Source of the DNA: a virus
Direction: 5' to 3' (one strand)
DNA: 28,377 nucleotides
Virus record (IMG/VR): IMGVR_UViG_3300046683_000198
Coordinates: 1-28,377 of that record
Of this stretch, positions 21,736 to 21,810 are shown piece by piece. The notes beneath the pieces were generated by a model that ran no database searches, was not told where the DNA came from, and worked only from the letters and a program-made list of their open reading frames with translations. Each line of letters begins with the position of its first letter. Within the stretch, counting starts at the first letter, position 1. A program made the position numbers and the translations under genes.

Positions 21736-21810
21736 TAAGTAGTTTCTATCTCTTTATATATCTAATACATCTATAGGGACGGAAGCGAGACTTATCCACA
21801 GTGTGGATAA
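21736..21810. other. Candidate replication origin: AT-rich stretch plus inverted DnaA boxes
   Basis: An AT-rich run at 21741-21777 (containing TCTTTATATATCTAAT), very unusual for this genome, is followed at 21792-21810 by TTATCCACA, one base, and TGTGGATAA. Each half is a perfect match to the DnaA-box consensus TTATnCACA, on opposite strands. An AT-rich unwinding element beside DnaA boxes is the standard plan of bacterial and many plasmid and phage origins. It sits just upstream of replication-linked genes. Whether host DnaA is used is an inference. Confidence 0.6.

Follow-up and report, generated by a model that had tools for sequence, protein, structure and literature searches.

Does this phage make use of the DnaA protein of its host, and if so, for transcription, for replication or for both? 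The question is raised by two perfect DnaA boxes in inverted orientation beside an AT-rich tract in an IMG/VR virus record of an uncultured phage (28,377 bp, called the window in the following, meaning the whole stretch of DNA analysed). Only a few models are known for phages that depend on host DnaA, and a dyad beside a single promoter-like match and a melting tract offers a directly testable case of such a dependence. Our answer, which we hold with considerable reserve, is that the dyad might be a host DnaA binding site that controls the promoter of a rightward exonuclease operon.

Both ends of a second contig, IMGVR_UViG_3300046473_000101 (32,360 bp), overlap the window, with 1306 of 1306 and 2767 of 2768 bases identical, and the two contigs together give the circular map of one phage with 56,663 bp (approximately 56.7 kb). 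A phage genome that is circularly permuted or terminally redundant would be expected to give such near-identical overlaps at both ends and a circular map. Next to the terminase and helicase genes listed in Table 1, the recognised phage genes include those for tail fibre, portal and tape measure. Phage records contain no near match to this phage, and its large terminase shares at most about 46% identity with known ones, which come from methanogen and Gordonia phages. Judged from these comparisons, the phage is isolated and without near relatives in phage records. Relatives of the dyad region were detected neither by near nor by protein-level searches of phage records, and a search of IMG/VR revealed no relative of the neighbouring exonuclease. 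The window contains no tRNA and no Rfam match above the gathering score. Two adjacent genes, which by family and sequence encode a phosphoesterase-family protein (PF04185, 6452-7288) and a glycosyl hydrolase family 99-like protein (PF16317, 7285-8058), represent an odd cargo next to the phage lysis and helicase genes.

The dyad is located near the right end of a divergent control region (about 20.7-21.9 kb). To the left of this region, small genes form a leftward block (about 8-20.7 kb), and to its right a rightward block extends from the exonuclease gene onward to the terminase genes. An ORF inside the control region (20853-21341, minus strand) is doubtful. Between 21270 and 21620 the control region also contains clustered perfect 8-bp hairpins (21362-21381, 21449-21465 and 21272-21296).

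Table 1. Positions of the features discussed, in window coordinates
Feature	Position	Strand	Basis or remark
DnaB-like helicase	2364-4007 (frame)		Phage-encoded
LuxR/GerE-type HTH protein	12734-13012	-	Stand-alone; candidate phage regulator
Divergent control region	20698-21885	.	Mostly non-coding, between leftward and rightward blocks; weak codon-position signal
Weak DnaA-like box TTACCTACA	21730-21738	-	2 mismatches; beyond the AT-rich tract; could be chance
AT-rich low-stability tract	21740-21776	.	78% AT; might serve for unwinding or as the -10 region of a leftward promoter
DnaA box TTATCCACA, perfect consensus	21792-21800	+	Exact sequence match
DnaA box, perfect consensus, inverted	21802-21810	-	Exact match; 1 bp from the first box
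Promoter-like TTGACG-N17-TAACGT	21817-21845	+	Rightward operon; starts 6 bp past the dyad
Direct repeat CGTTCGGT (21831-21838 and 21843-21850)	21831-21850	+	Overlaps the -10 region; possible second operator
Cas4/RecB-like exonuclease	21886-22818	+	First gene of the rightward operon; phrog_1706 (E 6.6e-15), phrog_1990 (E 4.3e-5)
Winged-helix protein	24882-25130	+	Candidate phage regulator
LuxR/GerE-type HTH protein	25075-25344	+	Stand-alone; candidate phage regulator
Small terminase	26208		Recognised gene
Large terminase	26994		Recognised gene

The dyad reads TTATCCACA-G-TGTGGATAA and is an inverted repeat of 9-nt arms with 100% complementarity. That it consists of two exact consensus boxes in inverted orientation had been claimed in the original prediction and is confirmed here. 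The feature is real, but its extent has to be corrected: of the predicted interval 21736-21810, the first position marks the AT-rich tract and the boxes occupy only 21792-21810. Five DnaA-box sites with at most one mismatch are present in the window, and the two boxes of the dyad are the sole perfect ones; the sister contig has one site with one mismatch and no perfect site. The combined map has no perfect DnaA box or box pair besides the dyad. From the base composition of the window, chance alone would yield 0.13 perfect boxes in 56.7 kb and 5e-7 inverted perfect pairs (spacing 0-6), which agrees with the earlier claim that a chance match is very unlikely. The consensus box was used for scoring, and the preferred box of the host may differ from it.

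In viral contigs, the pattern TTATCCACA-N0-6-TGTGGATAA occurs in at least 120 stretches, compared with three when the arm is scrambled with its composition kept. This excess suggests that host DnaA is often put to use by phages in their control regions. A portion of the excess of 5-bp-spaced pairs sits within one conserved ORF family, and these pairs are coding and not regulatory. The family (about 238 aa) was seen at four viral loci and others like them, each time with the 5-bp-spaced inverted pair within the coding sequence. Spacings of 3 bp (42), 5 bp (35) and 6 bp (26) dominate among the 120 viral matches listed, followed by 4 bp (9), 2 bp (4) and 0 bp (4), and none of them has a spacing of 1 bp. 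Perfect 1-bp-spaced pairs were found in viruses by a separate scan, which returned nine records representing about five distinct loci, all with A or T in the centre. Eight of these nine records have the pair in an intergenic position, whereas imperfect pairs lie inside ORFs in 66 of 90 cases. Taken together, consensus identity, uniqueness, intergenic position and the enrichment of the class in phage contigs make the dyad a well-supported candidate for a DnaA-binding site.

Terminase families are frequent among the proteins flanking viral DnaA-box pairs, and the pair lies upstream of terL in all 12 of 12 loci. However, a link between pairs and terminases is not established. Most of the non-coding DNA in these loci is itself upstream of terL, and weighting by its length gives P = 0.07; a distance of at most 1.5 kb between pair and terL is seen in eight loci, where 6.5 are expected.

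In bacterial genomes, the 1-bp-spaced pair is present in at least 117 stretches. Each of six actinobacterial genomes checked possesses exactly one inverted pair, and in the family around an Arthrobacter, 15 of 149 genomes contain one or two inverted pairs, mostly with 5-bp spacing, while the pattern read backwards is absent from the same 149 genomes. From these bacterial and viral counts, selection appears to maintain perfect inverted DnaA-box pairs, among which the 1-bp spacing is a minority form. Actinobacterial sites of the form TTATCCACA-N-TGTGGATAA (five loci and others like them) are often found beside rhomboid, crgA-like and methyladenine-glycosylase genes, and some have longer complementary arms (35 bp in one case).

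It is scarcely credible that the dyad is a hairpin or bidirectional terminator which uses the DnaA-box sequence by chance. The strand can fold into an 8-bp hairpin, and the same 19-mer occurs between gene ends in several bacteria, in some of them with longer complementary arms, but in the phage the dyad precedes a gene start, the arms are limited to 9 bp and there is no T run behind them.

A promoter-like match beside the dyad had no place in the original prediction. A sigma-70 scan of the strict kind, which requires four of six positions in the -10 region, gave no promoter, and the looser -10 pattern TANNNT was used in its place. This pattern is in use for high-GC actinobacteria. Scanning the window for TTGAC-N17-19-TANNNT returned a single match, where 0.53 are expected by chance window-wide. 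It ends approximately 40 bp ahead of the start codon of the exonuclease gene, the ATG of which is preceded by GAAAGGAG. Consensus DnaA boxes and a sequence match to a promoter are thus direct neighbours, which is the arrangement of a DnaA-regulated promoter. Since the dyad abuts the -35 region of this single match, any protein bound to it would be expected to touch or to exclude RNA polymerase. In E. coli, where dnaA and nrdAB are among its targets, and in B. subtilis, DnaA is well known to act as a transcription factor (PMC13220808). In the phage, two DnaA molecules would bind the inverted boxes just upstream of the -35 region, the bound DnaA would contact or exclude RNA polymerase, and expression of the exonuclease operon would track the amount or the nucleotide state of host DnaA. 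The binding of DnaA, whether it activates or represses, and the activity of the promoter are all inferences.

The 1-bp spacing, absent from the viral pairs listed, argues against promoter control by DnaA, as it may leave too little room for two DnaA domains. One dimeric protein would fit such a rare spacing better than two DnaA molecules, and the palindrome could be the operator of a helix-turn-helix regulator of the phage itself, with a likeness to DnaA boxes that arose by coincidence or mimicry. Two LuxR/GerE-type proteins and one winged-helix protein are indeed encoded by the phage, and a perfect dyad beside a -35 region is typical of such operators. We nevertheless regard this as quite unlikely, because the chance that an arm matches the DnaA consensus at all nine positions would be only about 1e-5 (4^-9, two orientations) and the dyad is not repeated on the map; the only other perfect palindrome with 9-bp arms, at 10519, differs in sequence.

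On its other side, the dyad is flanked by the roughly 37-base AT-rich run that had been described at 15 bases from the boxes, and this gap and length were found as described. The tract ranks first for AT among all 37-mers of the combined map. Of all 40-bp stretches of the window, 21736-21775 has the lowest stability (z = 6.7), and it lies 15 bp from the boxes. An unstable AT-rich unwinding element beside DnaA boxes is what an origin would exhibit, and it is possible, if doubtful, that dyad and tract form a phage replication origin or a part of it. We have the same doubts about the corresponding scheme, in which host DnaA would bind the boxes and melt the tract, and the DnaB-type helicase of the phage would then be loaded, as in plasmid origins. 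There is a weak third box beyond the tract, and the interval 20698-21886 contains two perfect boxes and three sites with two mismatches, that is five sites compared with 1.1 expected by length from a background not matched to non-coding DNA; this does not amount to a clear box cluster. The phage has its own DnaB-like helicase, and no initiator, helicase loader, polymerase or Rep protein was recognised among the scanned window proteins. Moreover, the leftward and rightward gene blocks part at this site, and bidirectional forks starting from it would thus run with transcription. DnaA boxes are joined with a DUE in the plasmid origins of P1, RK2 and pSC101 (PMC4980987).

Other results speak against an origin. 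There are just two strong boxes, and their 1-bp spacing is atypical. In RK2, replication is abolished by inverting one DnaA box (PMC4980987), which means that orientation matters and that an inverted pair does not readily suggest an origin. The BUS rule (PMC8287927) asks for at least three NAN trios, the first of them no more than 16 bp from a DnaA box, and no such run of DnaA-trios is found on either side of the dyad. An iteron array, the Rep-bound direct repeats of iteron-type plasmid and phage origins, is likewise missing, with a single pair of 8-bp direct repeats in its place. Cumulative GC skew, which had been proposed as a check, is flat near 21-22 kb and has no turning point at the site; the AT skew on the map follows gene orientation.

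The original prediction had offered both recruitment of host DnaA by the phage and control of the adjacent promoter. The second has gained support from the promoter-like match abutting the dyad, whereas the results on an origin are mixed: the DUE-like tract and the weak flanking box speak for it, and the presence of only two strong boxes, the missing trio run, the flat GC skew and the atypical spacing speak against it. Weighing the dyad next to the -35 region against these mixed results, we rank promoter control first and an origin second. Both could be true.

In that case, dyad, promoter and melting tract would be one element that couples both the transcription of the operon and the initiation of phage replication to DnaA, and host DnaA would serve the phage as a sensor. 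We consider this rather unlikely. If it holds true, inverted DnaA-box pairs would represent a widespread and unrecognised class of phage control elements; in the literature searched, which was short of most subscription journals, we found no inverted DnaA-box pairs in phages. Host DnaA might also simply be titrated, if accumulating phage copies soak it up and slow host initiation. Two boxes of top consensus per genome, multiplied by many phage copies, would serve this purpose and would need no conserved neighbour. But a titrator would be expected to carry more than two boxes, and these are sited exactly at the promoter-like match, which makes titration very unlikely.

Several known systems resemble the phage locus in part. 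With the BUS (DnaA box, spacer and DnaA-trios) it shares a DnaA box that has a GC-rich spacer and then AT-rich DNA behind it, but the run of at least three trios within the required distance is missing in the phage. P1 oriR, RK2 oriV and pSC101, which are plasmid or phage-plasmid origins, likewise have few strong boxes and, next to them, a short AT-rich stretch of low stability; in contrast to them, the phage has neither an iteron array nor a recognisable Rep initiator, and its boxes are inverted and nearly fused. The single TTATCCACA-N-TGTGGATAA sites of Actinobacteria consist of the same 19-mer, are intergenic and occur once per genome (six checked), but they often lie near gene ends (rhomboid, crgA-like, tag) and have other flanks. 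The DnaA-regulated promoters of bacteria (dnaA, nrdAB, sda and others) have boxes beside promoter elements, as the phage does, and partly belong to genes of DNA metabolism. They differ from the phage locus in that its operon is headed by an exonuclease gene, that its boxes are perfect, inverted and 1 bp apart, and that its regulation by DnaA is a prediction.
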